NCBI GenBank assembly: GCA_002898255.1
Contig: BEIE01000004.1
Coordinates: forward strand, 124,001 to 188,000
Source of the DNA: a bacterium HR28
GTDB lineage: Bacteria; Chloroflexota; Chloroflexia; Thermomicrobiales; Thermomicrobiaceae
DNA: 64,000 nt
Direction: 5' to 3'
How positions within the stretch are numbered: position 1 is the first letter of the stretch; every line of letters begins with the position of its first letter. Made by a program: the position numbers and the translations under genes. The notes beneath the pieces are model-generated. The model saw only the letters and a program-made list of their open reading frames with translations. It had not been told where the DNA came from and did no database searches. Below are positions 11,937-22,520 of this stretch, one piece after another.

Positions 11937-11964
11937 TATACGCATAAGGGTTCTAACCCCAAGT
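11937..11964 (+). repeat. Left attachment site (attL) candidate
   Basis: Left arm TATACGCATAA (11937-11947), centre GGGTTC (11948-11953), right arm TAACCCCAAGT (11954-11964). The first 18 bases repeat with one mismatch at 22493-22510. The left arm resembles a XerC-type half-site, while the right arm is divergent, as expected if it came from the element. Confidence 0.75.
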
Positions 11965-12072: not shown

Positions 12073-12094
12073 TTGGTGACCATGTCGTGACCAC
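12073..12094 (+). repeat. Left tandem 11-bp repeats, possible integrase arm sites
   Basis: TTGGTGACCAT at 12073-12083 is followed directly by the related GTCGTGACCAC at 12084-12094 (8 of 11 identical). The exact 11-mer occurs twice in tandem near the opposite end of the element, at 22419-22440, in the same orientation. Confidence 0.6.
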
Positions 12095-12110: not shown

Positions 12111-13019
12111 ATGGAAGCGCCGCGCATCGTGCCGGTCCGGGTCGCTCGACTGGATGGCGAGCGGGCACGCGAACGCGTGCTCGCCGCCGAGCCGAACCGA
12201 GTGGTCGAGACCGGCGACGAGGGGTCGATCATTGCCTGGTGGGACGATGGGGGGATGGCCATCATCAGCCCCAACCCTGAATTTCCCCCGGAGGCGCAAC
12301 TGATCGATGGAACGGGGCGGATCCTCTGCGCGTGCGAGAACCGCCCCCCATGGACAGCCGCGTTCGAATCGAGCCCGCTACTCGCCTGGGTCTCCGCGGT
12401 TTCCTGGTTGCCTGACCACGACCCGTACCCGCCGGCCCTCCTGGTCTCCGGCACAGCTGAGTCTCTCCGGTGGGCGCTCGAGGCCTGGTTCGATCACGTT
12501 GCGCAGATCCCTGGTCTCCTGGCCTCGTCTGGGGAGACGCGCATGCTCTGGACTCGACCCACCGCCTTCCCCTTCCCGGTTGCACATCCTGGCCAGGATC
12601 CGCTCCCCGAACACGCCCTCATCGCCTCGTGCTGGCTCCTCGTGGACGGTGCGCGTGTCACCGGGGACCCCGTGGCCGCGTTGCTCCGCGTCCGCGTGCG
12701 TCAACTCGCATCCGACCGTTGGTGCGTGACGGTCGCGACCGCCGTTCCAGCCCTGCGCGAAGGGGTCATCGACTGGTTGTCGGCGCTCCTCGGCCAAGTC
12801 GAAGTCATCAACCCATCGGTGCTCCTCGGCTTCGCGTTGCCAGACGAACGCCAGTGCACACTCCTGACCCCGACGGAACGGCAACTCCGGCAACTCTATT
12901 ACCACGGCCTCAGCGATAACGAAATCGCCCAAGCTGTCCACAAGGATCGGGGCACCGTGTCCAATATCCTGAGCGACCTCCGCCGCCGCCACCTCATCAG
13001 CACCCGCCGCCCGCGCTGA
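12111..13019 (+). CDS. Element-encoded protein with C-terminal LuxR-like HTH
   Basis: 302 residues from the ATG at 12111, preceded by GGGGGTG. The frame is open far upstream, but that part crosses the attachment site and promoter. The first 240 residues resemble nothing I recognise. The last 50 form a helix-turn-helix of the LuxR/GerE type: LTPTERQLRQLYYHGLSDNE, then IAQAVHKDRGTVSNILSDLR and a basic tail. It is the first gene of the element, reads inward, and sits behind the palindromic operator, so it is a plausible element regulator. The ligand or partner is unknown. Confidence 0.75.
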   Translation: MEAPRIVPVRVARLDGERARERVLAAEPNRVVETGDEGSIIAWWDDGGMAIISPNPEFPPEAQLIDGTGRILCACENRPPWTAAFESSPLLAWVSAVSWLPDHDPYPPALLVSGTAESLRWALEAWFDHVAQIPGLLASSGETRMLWTRPTAFPFPVAHPGQDPLPEHALIASCWLLVDGARVTGDPVAALLRVRVRQLASDRWCVTVATAVPALREGVIDWLSALLGQVEVINPSVLLGFALPDERQCTLLTPTERQLRQLYYHGLSDNEIAQAVHKDRGTVSNILSDLRRRHLISTRRPR

Positions 13020-13042: not shown

Positions 13043-13072
13043 CACGGCACCGGCCGAGCGGCCGGTGCCGTG
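13043..13072 (+). terminator. Strong hairpin after the regulator gene
   Basis: Perfect 13-bp GC-rich stem CACGGCACCGGCC at 13043-13055 and its complement at 13060-13072, with loop GAGC. It lies 24 nt after the regulator stop and has no clear U-run. It isolates the regulator gene from the iteron region. Confidence 0.6.
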
Positions 13073-13097: not shown

Positions 13098-13199
13098 CGT
13101 GAAACCGGCGTGAACCGGGCAGGAACGGCGCGTGAAGCTGCGTGAAGCGCGCATGAGAAACTCGTGAAGGAGCCGTGAAAGAATATGAAGCGCCATGAT
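13098..13199 (+). repeat. Ten helically phased CGTGAA-type iterons (putative origin)
   Basis: Copies begin at 13098, 13109, 13120, 13131, 13141, 13152, 13163, 13174, 13184 and 13194. Six are exact CGTGAA; four are degenerate (CAGGAA, CATGAG, TATGAA, CATGAT). Spacing is 10 or 11 bp throughout, mean 10.7, so every copy faces the same side of the helix. The array ends at the -35 box of the xis-primase-helicase operon. It is best explained as an iteron origin or a cooperative operator for that operon. Confidence 0.75.
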
Positions 13200-13229
13200 T
13201 GACCGACACGATCCATCACGGGCTATACT
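13199..13229 (+). promoter_or_regulatory. Promoter of the element replication operon
   Basis: TTGACC at 13199-13204 and TATACT at 13224-13229 with a 19-bp spacer, slightly long, 26 bp before the first start codon. The -35 box touches the last iteron, so a protein on the array would control it. Confidence 0.6.
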
Positions 13230-13254: not shown

Positions 13255-13485
13255 ATGCCGAAGCAAGACAAGCCGATCTACACCGTCAAGCTCCTCGATG
13301 CTGCGCGGCTCGCCGGTGTCGGGCGCTGGGCGGCCTACCGCGCGGCCAAGACCGGCGAGCTCTTGCCGGGTGTGCCGGTCGTCGCGGTCGGTCGGCGCCT
13401 GGTCGTGCCGGTCGCCCCGCTGGCGCGGGCGCTCGGAGTCGAGGCTGAGGAGCTGCGCGAGTCGATACGGGGGTCGACAAAATGA
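13255..13485 (+). CDS. Small helix-turn-helix (excisionase/MerR-like) protein
   Basis: 76 residues from the ATG at 13255, which has an excellent AAAGGAGGG site. It contains a winged-helix HTH of the excisionase type: YTVKLLDAARLAGVGRWAAY for helix-turn-helix, followed by RRLVVPVAPLARALGV. First gene of the replication operon and directly next to the iterons, it could be the protein that binds them or a regulator of integration. It shares 4 nt with the following mini-ORF. Confidence 0.75.
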   Translation: MPKQDKPIYTVKLLDAARLAGVGRWAAYRAAKTGELLPGVPVVAVGRRLVVPVAPLARALGVEAEELRESIRGSTK

Positions 13486-13598
13486 AGACACGCCCGCACC
13501 GCCGGGAACTCGCCCCAGTGGCACAGGCGCCTGGCGACCACCTCATCACGTCCGAGCTTGTGCGCCGCTTTGTTGCGTGGGAAAGGGTGGCGCCATGA
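13482..13598 (+). CDS. 38-residue mini-ORF locked between two overlaps
   Basis: It reads MKTRPHRRELAPVAQAPGDH and ends FVAWERVAP. Its ATG overlaps the preceding stop (ATGA at 13482-13485) and its stop overlaps the primase start (ATGA at 13595-13598). GGGGG lies 8 nt upstream. Perfect tiling at both ends makes translational coupling likely. The product is basic at the N-terminus with a short predicted helix at the C-terminus. Function unknown. Confidence 0.6.
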   Translation: MKTRPHRRELAPVAQAPGDHLITSELVRRFVAWERVAP

Positions 13599-14449
13599 CG
13601 AAGCTGGGTCGCACCGCCCTCCGGTACGCGAAAATGCTCCGCTGGCCCATCGTACCGCTCCACTGGGTCGACGATGCTGGCCACTGCTCCTGCGGCGATC
13701 CAGCGTGCCGCGCGGCCGGCAAACACCCGCTCATCGCCGACTGGCCGCGGCGCGCGACGAATGATCCGGCGACGCTCGCCCGCTGGTGGCAAAAATGGCC
13801 CCTGGCCAACCTCGGCGTCGCGCTCGGCGATGGCCACGTCGTCCTCGACGTCGACCCCCGGCATGGCGGCGATGAGGCACTCGCCGATCTCGAGGCCACG
13901 CACGAGCCGCTGCCGCCAACGCCAACCGTCCTGACCGGCGGTGGTGGGACCCACTACCACTTCGCCGCTCCGCCGGACACGCCGACCGTGACGCTCGCGC
14001 CCGGTCTCGAACTCAAGGCCGCGGGGGCACAAGTCGTCCTGCCACCGAGTCGGAGCGCGGCCGGGCTCTACCAGTGGGATGCCGGCGCTCATGTCGCCGA
14101 TCTCCCGCTTGCGCCGCTGCCCGACTGGCTGCTGGCACTGGCGCACCAGGTGCGGCGGAGCCCTGGTCAGAGGAGTACGGAACTCCCGCCGGTGATCACC
14201 GAAGGGGCGCGCAACCGCTGGCTCGCCTCGCTTGCCGGGACACTGCGCCGCCGCGGCTGCAGCGAAGCGGAAATCCTTGCGTGTCTCCGGATCCTCAACG
14301 TCTCACGCTGCCAGCCGCCGCTGGACGAGCGCGAGCTGGCCAAGATCGCACGGTCCATCGCGCGCTACGCACCGGCGTGTCCGCCAGATGCACCGGCCCC
14401 CCGCAGCCGCCGGCGCATCATCCACCTGGGAGTGATCCATGCGGAGTGA
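13595..14449 (+). CDS. Prim-Pol type primase/polymerase with PriCT-like C-terminus
   Basis: 284 residues from the ATG at 13595 (GAAAGGGTGG upstream). The N-terminal domain matches the bifunctional DNA primase/polymerase family: a Cys-rich segment CSCGDPACRAAGKHPLIADW, then LGVALGDGHVVLDVDPRHGG with the paired catalytic aspartates, and LTGGGGTHYHFA. The C-terminal part VITEGARNRWLASLAGTLRR and ERELAKIARSIARYAP fits the primase C-terminal domain. It would prime replication of the element together with the helicase whose gene it overlaps by 11 nt. Plasmids and phages often pair these two activities. Confidence 0.88.
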   Translation: MTKLGRTALRYAKMLRWPIVPLHWVDDAGHCSCGDPACRAAGKHPLIADWPRRATNDPATLARWWQKWPLANLGVALGDGHVVLDVDPRHGGDEALADLEATHEPLPPTPTVLTGGGGTHYHFAAPPDTPTVTLAPGLELKAAGAQVVLPPSRSAAGLYQWDAGAHVADLPLAPLPDWLLALAHQVRRSPGQRSTELPPVITEGARNRWLASLAGTLRRRGCSEAEILACLRILNVSRCQPPLDERELAKIARSIARYAPACPPDAPAPRSRRRIIHLGVIHAE

Positions 14450-16238
14450 CATCGTCGAAATCGTCGTGCATGGTGTGACGTATCGCATCGAAGAGCCAAT
14501 CGTCCGTGATGGCCTCCGTGCCACCGTTACCGCGCTGGTCGATGGCCAGGCTCTCGCCACTGACCGGCTCAACCTCGACCGCGAGCGGGATCGCCGCCGC
14601 TTCGCCGAACGTGCCGGCAACCCGGCGCTCGCCGATGACCTGCTCCTCGTCCGTGAGCGCGTGCTGGAGTACCTCGCCGGGCCACCACCCGCCGCGAGCG
14701 AGGCAAATAAGACACTTGACGGCGAGGTGCTCGCCGCCGCCCTGGCGTTGCTGGACGACCCACAGCTGCTCGACCGGGTTCGCGAGACGGTGGCCGCGCT
14801 CGGTTGGACGCCGCCCCCGGGCGGCGAACACCTGCCGGCGCTGGTGTACCTGGTCCTCAGCAGCCGCTTGCTGGAGCGGCCGGTGAACTTGCTCGTCGAG
14901 GGCCCGAGCGGCGCGGGCAAGACGCTGCTCGTCGCGACGGTTGCCCAGCTCTTCCCGGCAGACGCGATCGTTGCGCTCACCGGCATGTCGGAGCGCGGCC
15001 TGCTCTACCTGGGCGGCAACCTCAGCCACCGGATGCTGCTCGTCACCGAGGCGGCTGGCCTGCATCGCGACGGCATCGGTGCGGCGATCATGCGCTCGGT
15101 CACCTGGGAAGGTCGCGTGCGCTACCCGACCGTCGAGAAGGACGAGAGCGGCCGGCTGGTGAGCCGCGTGATCGAACTCGCGGGGCCAACCGGACTCGTC
15201 ACGACGACTACCCGCGGCGTCGAAGAGGAACTGGCCACGCGACTCCTAGCCGTCAGCGTGCCGGAAAGTCCTGAGGCGACGCGAGCGGTGCTCCGCGCCA
15301 TCGGCCGGACAGCCAACGGGAGTGCGCCAGAACAGCCGGATCTCGCGCCCTGGCACGCACTGCAGCGGTGGCTCGAGCACGAGGGGGTACGGAGCGTCAC
15401 CATCCCGTTCGCGGAGCGGCTCGCCGAACTCGTGCCGGCTGACCTCGTGCGCATGCGGCGCGATTTCCCGCAGCTCCTGACCCTGATCCGCGCCCATGCG
15501 CTCCTCCACCAGCGCCAGCGCGAGCGCGATGCCCATGGCCGGATCATCGCCACGCTTGCAGACTACGCAGCAGTCCACCGGCTGGTCGCGCCGCTGTACG
15601 GCGTCATCGCCGCCGGCGGGGTGACCGAGGGGGTCCGCATGGTGGTCAGCGCGGTCGCCGAGCTGTGCCTCGAGCCGGACGATACGGTGTCGCTCACCCG
15701 GCTCGTGCAGCTGCTCGGTCGCGACAAATCGCGCATCAGCCGGCACGTCCGCCGCGCGATCGAGCTCGGCTTCTTGGTCAACCTGGAGCCCGTCAAAGGC
15801 CGGCCGGCCAAGCTGCGCCCCGGCGACCCGCTGCCGCCACCGGTGAGCGCGCTCCCCGACCCAGAAAACCTTGCGCTCCCCCTGGAGCGCAACACCGCAA
15901 CACTCGCGGGAGATCGCGATCACGACGCGGAAAACACCGTTGCACCTGGGGGAGCAACACCCCCGCAACACCCGCAACACCCGCCACGGCCGGACGAGGG
16001 AAGCGTTGCGGGTGTTGCGCCACCGTTGCGCCCCGGGGAGCAACGGTCTTTTGGCGATGCTGATGCGGAAATCGCCGACCGTTGCGGTGTTGCGGGTAGG
16101 GGGCAACAGTGCATGTTTTGCCCCTGCGGTGGCGTACTCGGGCCGACGGACCGCGCAGGTTGGCTGCGCTGCGAGCGGTGTGGACAGTGGATGCGCGCCG
16201 ACGATCCAGCATTGCGGCGCGGGAAGGGAGGTGGCTAA
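14439..16238 (+). CDS. AAA+ ATPase (putative replicative helicase) with winged helix and zinc ribbon
   Basis: 599 residues. An N-terminal region of about 120 residues precedes an ATPase domain with Walker A EGPSGAGKTLL at about residue 150, a Walker B-like RMLLVTEAAG, and a sensor region GPTGLVTTTTRG. A winged helix follows near residue 420 (VSLTRLVQLLGRDKSRISRH). A Pro/His-rich linker then leads to a C-terminal zinc ribbon with CMFCPCGG and CERCGQWM. By context with the Prim-Pol gene it is likely the element's replicative helicase or origin-opening ATPase. It ends in TAATG, shared with the next start. Confidence 0.82.
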   Translation: MRSDIVEIVVHGVTYRIEEPIVRDGLRATVTALVDGQALATDRLNLDRERDRRRFAERAGNPALADDLLLVRERVLEYLAGPPPAASEANKTLDGEVLAAALALLDDPQLLDRVRETVAALGWTPPPGGEHLPALVYLVLSSRLLERPVNLLVEGPSGAGKTLLVATVAQLFPADAIVALTGMSERGLLYLGGNLSHRMLLVTEAAGLHRDGIGAAIMRSVTWEGRVRYPTVEKDESGRLVSRVIELAGPTGLVTTTTRGVEEELATRLLAVSVPESPEATRAVLRAIGRTANGSAPEQPDLAPWHALQRWLEHEGVRSVTIPFAERLAELVPADLVRMRRDFPQLLTLIRAHALLHQRQRERDAHGRIIATLADYAAVHRLVAPLYGVIAAGGVTEGVRMVVSAVAELCLEPDDTVSLTRLVQLLGRDKSRISRHVRRAIELGFLVNLEPVKGRPAKLRPGDPLPPPVSALPDPENLALPLERNTATLAGDRDHDAENTVAPGGATPPQHPQHPPRPDEGSVAGVAPPLRPGEQRSFGDADAEIADRCGVAGRGQQCMFCPCGGVLGPTDRAGWLRCERCGQWMRADDPALRRGKGGG

Positions 16239-17732: not shown

Positions 17733-17956
17733 CGACTGAACCTACAATGAAACAGTGGACCCTCCTCGCCGAGCTGGCTCGCTCGGTGCTCGCGCTGGCG
17801 CGTGCCGAGGCCGCCTGGACCCGCGCGCTCGTGCAGGTGCAGGACGCCGAAGCCGCACTCGACCGTTCGTGGCCCGGCTGGCGGGACTGGCTCCGCGCCT
17901 GGCTCGCCGAGAAAGCAGAACCCGACAGGGTGCGCCAATGCCTGCCAATGTTGTGA
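17729..17956 (+). CDS. Small hypothetical element protein
   Basis: 75 residues starting at the ATG at 17729 after GGGGGGGAAGAG. It is largely helical, Ala/Leu/Arg-rich, with three Trp in SWPGWRDWLRAW. No family recognised. Its end overlaps the start of the next gene by 19 nt. It belongs to the same tightly packed plus-strand operon. Confidence 0.6.
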   Translation: MTTEPTMKQWTLLAELARSVLALARAEAAWTRALVQVQDAEAALDRSWPGWRDWLRAWLAEKAEPDRVRQCLPML

Positions 17957-18411
17957 GACACAAGCGACGGCTCTTCGTGCTCGCGTTGCTCTCTGGTGCG
18001 ACGATCGAGGAGGCGTCGATGCGTGCTGGCGTCTCGACCCGCACCGGTTCCCGCTGGGCGAACGACCCCATGATCCGCGCGATGATCGATGCGGAACTGG
18101 CGCGGATCGAAGAGCACATCATCGACCAGCTCGTTGCCGGAGCGGGGGAGGGAGTGGCGGTCCTGCGGCGGTTGCTCGGCAGCAGCGACGAGCGGCTGGC
18201 GCTCCGTGCTGCCGACCGGCTGGTCCAGCACTACCTCACGTGGGTGACGGGACAGCGGCGTTCCGGCGTTGACGAGCAGGAACTCGAACACGTGGTGCAG
18301 CTGATCGAACGAGCGGTGACGCAGGCGTTGCGCGATGTCGGACTCGGTGACCGGGAAAGGGAGGTGCGTGAGCGGTTGGCCGCGATACTCCAGCGAGGAG
18401 TGGATACCTGA
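17938..18411 (+). CDS. HTH protein resembling phage small-terminase/regulator proteins
   Basis: 157 residues from the ATG at 17938, inside the end of the previous gene. The N-terminus has a homeodomain-like helix-turn-helix, LALLSGATIEEASMRAGVST followed by RTGSRWANDP. The rest is predominantly helical (AVLRRLLGSSDERLALRAAD). This layout, HTH then long helices, is seen in small terminase subunits and related phage proteins, but the similarity is by eye only. If it is a terminase-like protein, the element could be a packaged satellite. Confidence 0.65.
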   Translation: MPANVVRHKRRLFVLALLSGATIEEASMRAGVSTRTGSRWANDPMIRAMIDAELARIEEHIIDQLVAGAGEGVAVLRRLLGSSDERLALRAADRLVQHYLTWVTGQRRSGVDEQELEHVVQLIERAVTQALRDVGLGDREREVRERLAAILQRGVDT

Positions 18412-21050: not shown

Positions 21051-21070
21051 CGTCCGACTCCTTTCGTGAT

Positions 21071-21162
21071 GTTCCGTGACGTTCCGTCAGCGTTTGTATC
21101 GTATCATATCGTTCCGTGTCGTGTCAAGCTGTCATGCCTACTCAGCGCGTGTCGTGTATCAT
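21071..21162. promoter_or_regulatory. Divergent control region between SWIM operon and xis-int
   Basis: On the minus strand TTGACA (21122-21127) and TACGAT (21098-21103) are 18 bp apart and fit the SWIM operon promoter. On the plus strand TATCAT at 21157-21162 is a possible -10 for the xis-int pair. GTTCCGT occurs three times (21071, 21081, 21111) and could be operator half-sites. Confidence 0.6.
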
Positions 21163-21183
21163 CGGCGCCGGAGGTGAGGCGTG

Positions 21184-21387
21184 ATGGCACAGGATCGCTG
21201 GTTGACGGTCGAGCAGGTCGCCGAGCGGTTGCAGGTCTCGCCGGTGACGGTCCGCCGCTGGCTGCGCGAGGGGCTCCTGGCGGGCAGTCGCTTGCCCGGC
21301 AAGGCGGGTTGGCGCATCAGCGAGCAGGACGTCGAGCGGTTTCTCGCCGAACGAGCGGGACAGCGGAGTGCGGAGCAGCATGGCTGA
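21184..21387 (+). CDS. Excisionase-like HTH protein
   Basis: 67 residues, ATG at 21184 seven bases after GGAGGTG. It is a single winged-helix domain of the excisionase/HTH_17 type: LTVEQVAERLQVSPVTVRRW then LPGKAGWRISEQDVERFLAE. It overlaps the integrase start by 8 nt. Such proteins act as recombination directionality factors; this is the best Xis candidate of the element, with the 13255 gene as an alternative. Confidence 0.83.
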   Translation: MAQDRWLTVEQVAERLQVSPVTVRRWLREGLLAGSRLPGKAGWRISEQDVERFLAERAGQRSAEQHG

Positions 21388-22462
21388 GCGGCGCGGCCGC
21401 AGCTACTCCAAGCGCGTCTGGGTCCTCGATCCGGCGACCGGCCAGCGCAAGCAGGTGCGCATCACGGCGCGCACGAAGAAGGAGCTGGCCGAGAAGGAAG
21501 CCAAGCTCCGGCTCGGCGACGCCCCGCTCGCACCAGCGAGCCTCACCGTCGCCGACTTCCTCGCGCACTACCTCGCCGTCGCGCGCCTCAGCGAGGCGAC
21601 CCGCCGGAGCTACCAGCAGGCCGCCAAGCGGTTCGTCCTGCCGCTCCTCGGCGGACTCAAACTCCGCCAGGTCACTGGCTTCCACGTCCAGCAGGTGTTC
21701 CAGGCCGCTAGCGGGTCGAGCTACGCGCAGCAGGTCGGAGCGCTGGTGCGCGGCCTGTTCCGGTTGGCCGTCCGCGAGGGGCTCTTGCCGCGCTCACCGG
21801 CCGACGGGCTGGAAGGACCGGCGCCGGCCCGCACCGAGCGGACAGCCCGCGCCTGGACGCTGGACGAACTCCGCCGCTTCCTCGCCGTCGCTGCCCAGCA
21901 CCGCTACGGCCGGTTCTTCTTCGTCCTGGCGACGACCGGCCTGCGGGTGAGCGAGGCCTGCAACCTGCGCTGGAGCGACGTCGACCTGGCGGCTGCCGCG
22001 CTCTTCGTGCGCCGGTCCAAGTCGGCAGCCGGTCGCCGGCGCATCGCGCTCGACCCGGCAACGATCCAGGTGCTCGCCGCCCAGCAGGCCGAGCAGGCGC
22101 GGCGCCGACAGCTCCTCGGACCGGCCTGGCAGGAGCACGATGCCGTCTTCGATCGCGGCGACGGCACGCCGCTCGCCGTGCGCACCGTGCAGGCCGTCAT
22201 GCAGACGCTGGTCGCACGGGCCGGGCTGACCGGTACGCCGCACACGCTCCGCCACACCCACGCCACGCTGCTCCTCGAACGGGGGGTCCCGGTCCATCTC
22301 GTCCAGCAGCGGCTCGGCCACAGCACGAGCCGCATCACGCTCGATGCCTACGCCCACGCCTTGCCACCCGCCGAGCGGCTGCTCGTCACCGAACTGGCCA
22401 CCCTGGCCGAACACGAAGTTGGTGACCATTTGGTGACCATCCGGGCCCTGAACGCAGAATAG
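21380..22462 (+). CDS. Tyrosine recombinase (integrase)
   Basis: 360 residues from the ATG at 21380. It has an N-terminal arm-binding-type region, a SAM-like core-binding domain (VADFLAHYLAVARLSEATRR), and a catalytic domain with ATTGLRVSEACNL (first Arg), RRSKSAAGRRRI (Lys), HTLRHTHATLL (His-x-x-Arg), LGHS (His/Trp position) and the nucleophile Tyr in LDAYAHAL. All catalytic residues are present. The integrase lies 30 bp from the right attachment site and its last codons contain the right pair of arm-like repeats. It presumably integrates and, with an Xis, excises the element. Confidence 0.95.
   Translation: MAERRGRSYSKRVWVLDPATGQRKQVRITARTKKELAEKEAKLRLGDAPLAPASLTVADFLAHYLAVARLSEATRRSYQQAAKRFVLPLLGGLKLRQVTGFHVQQVFQAASGSSYAQQVGALVRGLFRLAVREGLLPRSPADGLEGPAPARTERTARAWTLDELRRFLAVAAQHRYGRFFFVLATTGLRVSEACNLRWSDVDLAAAALFVRRSKSAAGRRRIALDPATIQVLAAQQAEQARRRQLLGPAWQEHDAVFDRGDGTPLAVRTVQAVMQTLVARAGLTGTPHTLRHTHATLLLERGVPVHLVQQRLGHSTSRITLDAYAHALPPAERLLVTELATLAEHEVGDHLVTIRALNAE
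22419..22440 (+). repeat. Right tandem 11-bp repeats, possible integrase arm sites
   Basis: TTGGTGACCAT occurs twice head to tail at 22419-22429 and 22430-22440, inside the last codons of the integrase gene and 52 bp from the core site. The same 11-mer is at 12073-12083 near the left end. Confidence 0.65.
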
Positions 22463-22492: not shown

Positions 22493-22520
22493 TATGCGCA
22501 TAAGGGTTCTTATGCGTATT
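22493..22520 (+). repeat. Right attachment site (attR) candidate, dif-like
   Basis: Left arm TATGCGCATAA (22493-22503), centre GGGTTC (22504-22509), right arm TTATGCGTATT (22510-22520). The two arms are near-perfect inverted repeats around a 6-bp centre, the layout of a Xer/dif-type core. The first 18 bases match the left site with one mismatch. Confidence 0.75.

Follow-up and report, generated by a model that had tools for sequence, protein, structure and literature searches.

The ten-copy repeat array at positions 13098 to 13199 of the 64,000-nucleotide stretch of HR28 DNA analysed here (the window) is probably a cooperative operator of the winged helix-turn-helix (HTH) protein encoded from position 13255, and it abuts a −35-like hexamer. 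A cooperative operator was one of two readings offered in a preliminary description of this DNA. It is supported by the end of the array at the −35-like hexamer and by the first gene that follows, whose product is a winged HTH of the BldC/RdfS/Xis class. As an operator, the array would probably be the point at which a small integrative element of Thermomicrobiales is controlled, apart from a likelier replication origin 2.7 kb downstream.

Repeat array and promoter region

The array and its immediate surroundings contain the following features.

13043–13072, no strand assigned: perfect 14-bp inverted repeat, terminator-like and without a T run, between the upstream gene and the array
13098–13199, plus strand: helically phased array of ten CRTGAA copies, proposed operator (chain score, shuffles, phase fit)
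13199–13204, plus strand: −35-like hexamer TTGACC (read from the sequence, inferred)
13224–13229, plus strand: −10-like hexamer TATACT after a 19-bp spacer (read from the sequence, inferred)
13255–13485, plus strand: 76-aa winged HTH protein, excisionase/BldC/AlpA-like, proposed binder of the array (PHROG, homologues, AlphaFold2)

The copies start at 13098, 13109, 13120, 13131, 13141, 13152, 13163, 13174, 13184 and 13194, which exactly reproduces the positions and the spacings (11, 11, 11, 10, 11, 11, 11, 10, 10) of the ten CGTGAA-type copies first described. Six of the ten carry the exact CGTGAA hexamer, and the four degenerate copies, each with two mismatches, are CAGGAA at 13120, CATGAG at 13152, TATGAA at 13184 and CATGAT at 13194. 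The column counts over the ten copies (C9 R10 T9 G10 A10 A8) give the consensus CRTGAA. A straight-line fit to the copy starts yields a period of 10.7 bp with every residual below 0.8 bp, indicating that all copies lie on one helical face; the phase coherence is 0.97 at 10.7 bp and 0.91 at 10.5 bp. The fit and the coherence thus bear out the earlier observation that the copies share a helix face over 100 bp.

We scanned for chains of hexamers spaced by 10 or 11 bp, with the hexamer chosen freely and 1000 dinucleotide shuffles of the intergenic region as the null. The array scored 22, which none of the 1000 shuffles reached (shuffle maximum, 14). It is also the strongest such chain of the 64-kb window, where the runner-up locus scored 11, and the scan found no array near a score of 22 in 1.23 Mb of other loci (best, 15). 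The CGTGAA hexamer itself is not over-represented in the window (42 found, 39 expected); therefore, the significance rests on the phasing. The pattern CGTGAA-N4/5-CRTGAR-N4/5-CRTGA was present in three of 61 genomes of the order, twice within the array and once in each of the two others. A separate candidate, an RNA element at the array, was rejected because the RNA folding there is ordinary (z 0.4).

TTGACC begins with the base that ends the tenth copy, CATGAT (13194–13199). The array therefore ends at the operon promoter as previously described, with the promoter being putative and deduced from the sequence. A sigma-70 consensus scan with spacers of 16–18 bp returned no promoter here, and the one with a 19-bp spacer is our reading of the sequence. 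Relatives have TTGAYN/TTGAAC-18-TACGCT at the equivalent position, that is, an 18-bp spacer.

We also observed a strong stem, GGYGCGTCC...GGACGCRCC, that covers the stretch from the promoter region of the HTH gene to its ribosome-binding site in three related genomes, G009, G003 and G006 (L004, minus strand, about 2654–2715; L050, 890–948; L053, 968–1028). A compensating change is present in this stem, and its z values range from −4 to −7.5. The stem is absent in the window element.

The winged HTH protein and other candidate binders

The 13255 product by itself has no Pfam match and only a weak match to PHROG 66, and it matched neither the BldC family model NF033787 (NCBIfam) nor an AlpA family. 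The alignment of 20 relatives identifies it as a winged HTH of the MerR/excisionase type, and HTH_17 was matched by four of the five proteins in a smaller alignment of its homologues. The AlphaFold2 model (pLDDT 89) is a winged HTH. Its top structural matches are BldC bound to DNA (Z 6.1), RdfS (5.7) and Pukovnik Xis (4.7), followed by the P2 DNA-binding protein 4lhf (4.5), Tn916 Xis (4.4) and lambda Xis (4.1); TraN of Enterococcus is also among the matches. Most of the top matches belong to the excisionase/BldC class, with modest Z values (about 6 at best), and the Foldseek E-values were not significant. A sequence search for solved relatives with the homologous HTH of G009 gave chance matches only. 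A small winged HTH of the MerR/excisionase superfamily thus lies adjacent to the array, and cognate binding is predicted. The array has the one-turn direct-repeat spacing (10–11 bp) of head-to-tail winged-HTH operator arrays.

From these features, the 13255 protein most likely binds the CRTGAA sites, and does so cooperatively. One monomer would occupy each site, and head-to-tail contacts between monomers on a single DNA face would build a cooperative filament. This filament would end at the −35 region of the promoter of the HTH, mini-ORF, Prim-Pol and helicase operon, and would thereby work as a threshold switch that controls how far the HTH gene itself and the replication genes are expressed. 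We slightly favour activation over repression, because the last copy abuts the −35 hexamer, the spacer is long (19 bp) and AlpA activates its own promoter. Repression is possible, as by Apl at pR-pL or by RdfS at its own promoter.

The array and the operon belong to an integrative element. An empty site was found in G003, a genome of the same genus, where both flanks are joined, indicating an insertion of about 10.6 kb between CGCATAAGGGTTCT direct repeats at 11941 and 22497. Besides the HTH gene, the element contains the following features.

11941–11954, plus strand: attL core CGCATAAGGGTTCT, 14 bp (empty site in G003)
12073–12083, plus strand: candidate integrase arm-type site TTGGTGACCAT (rare string near the element end)
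13482–13598, plus strand: 38-aa ORF overlapping both neighbours, with no family match
13595–14449, plus strand: Prim-Pol with PriCT-1 (PF09250, 4e-37; PF08708, 1e-17)
14439–16238, plus strand: AAA-type helicase-like protein (weak AAA matches)
21062–21117, plus strand: second phased array, TTYCGT in a register of about 10 bp, in the divergent promoter region before xis
21181–21387, plus strand: 68-aa HTH_17/TIGR01764 excisionase (xis)
21380–22462, plus strand: tyrosine integrase (PF00589, 2e-30)
22419–22440, plus strand: two candidate integrase arm-type sites TTGGTGACCAT in tandem, starting at 22419 and 22430
22497–22510, plus strand: attR core CGCATAAGGGTTCT, 14 bp (empty-site comparison)

The insertion lies in a palindromic, terminator-like site and not in a tRNA gene. 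Exact TTGGTGACCAT occurs only three times in the 64 kb, always near the element ends, and its presence near both ends is as expected of integrase arm-type sites; the right-hand pair is inside the integrase coding sequence. The element may be a PICI-like satellite: int, xis, a regulator, Prim-Pol and helicase, and a repeat cluster in both orientations are present, and the one terS-like match is weak; 17932–18408 shows weak similarity to a phage small terminase subunit (phrog_641, E 2e-5), which hints at a phage-satellite lifestyle.

The second array supports the operator reading, in that the other HTH_17 gene of the element, at 21181, is also preceded by a phased array, whose score none of 1000 shuffles reached. 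The 21181 product scored 33 against the BldC model NF033787, below the cut-off of 77. The same array bears on a different binder for the first one. The gene ending at 13019, just upstream of the array, encodes a product with a C-terminal HTH-like region, and such a gene is also found just upstream in G009 and G003. The array might then be the operator of this upstream regulator, acting as master repressor or activator, and some response regulators do bind direct repeats (discussed in PMC5859096). We consider this alternative unlikely, since the array at 21062–21117 has no such gene beside it and yet precedes an HTH_17 gene, and since binding to direct repeats one turn apart is characteristic of the class of winged HTHs to which the 13255 product belongs (PMC7498355). 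The upstream gene nevertheless counts against the operator reading as an alternative source of the binder, as do the weak arrays in two of the nearest relatives, G003 and G006, the absence of significant arrays before more distant HTH_17 genes, and the modest structural scores.

The structural resemblance of the 13255 product to excisionases raises a further alternative, namely that the array serves as a recombination directionality site around which the excision complex is organised. However, some 1.1 kb separates the array from the attL core, and it does not coincide with the candidate arm-type sites, all of which are found within 130 bp of the cores; moreover, the integrase has a separate TIGR01764 excisionase gene beside it. 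An excision site is therefore very improbable, and the operator of the 13255 protein remains the preferred reading.

Related elements and the candidate replication origin

A single-sequence search with the Prim-Pol confirmed nothing in genome_contigs and gave one distant relative in viral_contigs, while querying with an alignment retrieved 62 and 80 loci. The relative G009, from another genus of the family, has a Prim-Pol 82% identical to that of the window. The replication block is 82% identical at the DNA level over 13641–16093, where the homology ends. In spite of this, the G009 element does not contain CGTGAA repeats, and the identity across the array is at background level. At the equivalent place, G009 has four ATCAAGCC-type words exactly 11 bp apart (0 of 1000 shuffles), ahead of an HTH gene whose product is 45% identical to the window HTH. 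G009 carries the element twice (L027 on G009:C2 and L028 on G009:C4). One copy is at a contig end and the other is on a contig of 13 kb that contains frameshifts and an internal inverted duplication; this is either an assembly artefact or an extra copy.

The opposite arrangement was seen between G003 and G009. Their HTH proteins are 64% identical, the DNA upstream of the HTH gene is 68% identical and ATCAAGCC-TTGA is common to both upstream regions, while their Prim-Pols have no significant similarity (blastp E 0.3). This double dissociation among the window, G009 and G003 indicates that the array word follows the HTH gene and is separable from the replication genes. The HTH of G006 is 77% identical to that of G009 and the upstream DNA is 57% identical; the Prim-Pols of both G003 and G006 show no detectable similarity to those of the window or G009. 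Judging from these sequences, array word and HTH go together across elements, though the support is uneven: the G003 array is short, with 71 of 1000 shuffles reaching its score, and the G006 copies are spaced by 11–12 bp rather than 10–11 bp. Upstream of more distant HTH_17 genes we found no significant array, and no small HTH gene was evident alongside L203, L147 and L173, three of the other stretches that ranked highest in the chain scan.

These comparisons also bear on the second reading of the preliminary description, that of a plasmid-type iteron array. Iteron arrays are typically phased direct repeats. An origin bound by the Prim-Pol or the helicase would accord with the position of the array ahead of the replication genes and with its lower G+C content (58%, compared with 69% for the element). 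The repeats are, however, not conserved with the replication proteins: G009 shares the block and not the repeats, an outcome that the preliminary description itself named as refuting its proposal. Instead, a different cluster is conserved in the replication block.

15889–16107, no strand assigned: 13 GCAAC/GTTGC sites, direct and inverted, alternative candidate replication origin (conserved in G009)

This cluster, at the 3' end of the helicase gene and in or at the end of the shared block, places 13 sites within 219 bp, compared with a background mean of 0.7 per 240-bp stretch of the window. In G009, 12 of the 13 sites are perfectly conserved, with 60 of 60 bases and 18 of 18 third codon positions identical. 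Third-position identity to G009 is 0.85 across the cluster stretch and 0.54–0.67 in the rest of the helicase gene. The conservation of third codon positions within the sites indicates that the constraint is at least partly on the DNA. PICI origins lie 3' of the replication or initiator gene and contain two iteron sets (PMC6092414); the position of the cluster agrees with this, whereas that of the array does not. An AT-rich core as in PICI origins is not evident at 15889–16107. Taken together, the cluster, 2.7 kb downstream of the array, is the more probable candidate for the replication origin, and the iteron reading of the array finds no support; we regard an origin at the array as quite unlikely.

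The exchange seen among these elements suggests a tentative extension of the operator reading. HTH gene, promoter and phased array may form a transferable cassette that passes between elements whose replication modules are unrelated, with the operator word (CRTGAA, ATCAAGCC and possibly GCGACAT) diverging along with the protein and the ten-site array nucleating an unusually long, regular filament. We hold this to be possible rather than probable. If true, the cassettes would provide a natural series for reading the recognition code of head-to-tail winged-HTH filaments. More generally, related arrays with differing words and orthologous HTHs allow a direct test of how excisionase-like filaments recognise DNA, a low-specificity process that is poorly understood.

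Comparison with known systems

In its layout, the array resembles the operators of phage 186 Apl, which binds six-base direct repeats spaced by 10–11 bp, seven of them at pR-pL; the sites are weak singly and highly cooperative (PMC7498355). Both consist of hexamer direct repeats at 10–11 bp with a loose consensus, and both are found in promoter regions at a distance from att. The HR28 array differs in having ten sites instead of seven, in its sequence word, and in lying upstream of the −35 hexamer while the Apl sites lie between face-to-face promoters. In addition, the HR28 element has a second, separate excisionase gene.

BldC of Streptomyces, the closest solved fold to the 13255 model by VIA-align (Z 6.1), binds head to tail on direct repeats with one helical turn per monomer, and protects four tracts one turn apart in smeA-sffA (PMC5859096). 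In contrast to the 13255 product, BldC is a chromosomal developmental regulator. An AT-rich tract is part of the BldC sites, of which smeA-sffA has four, whereas the CRTGAA sites here are regular over 100 bp. RdfS of ICEMlSymR7A, also a winged HTH and the second-best fold match, binds its own promoter and assembles into filaments (PMC11963761). Unlike for the array, no consensus motif was found for RdfS, and RdfS is itself the excisionase. In the E. coli PICI EcCICFT073, AlpA induces replication and is an activator of its own promoter. It is likewise a small regulator, encoded by an integrase element that carries a primase-replication module and an origin 3' of the replication gene, and phased AlpA operators are not reported for EcCICFT073 in the accessible part of the source for these statements (PMC6092414).

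According to the preliminary description, no iteron of this form was known to have been described in the group. That may be true of the word within the group and is not true of the form, since hexamer direct repeats at 10–11 bp are known from phage 186 Apl and from further recombination directionality factors. We conclude that the array, an unlikely origin, is probably an operator of a known kind, unusually long and regular, in an unfamiliar host group.
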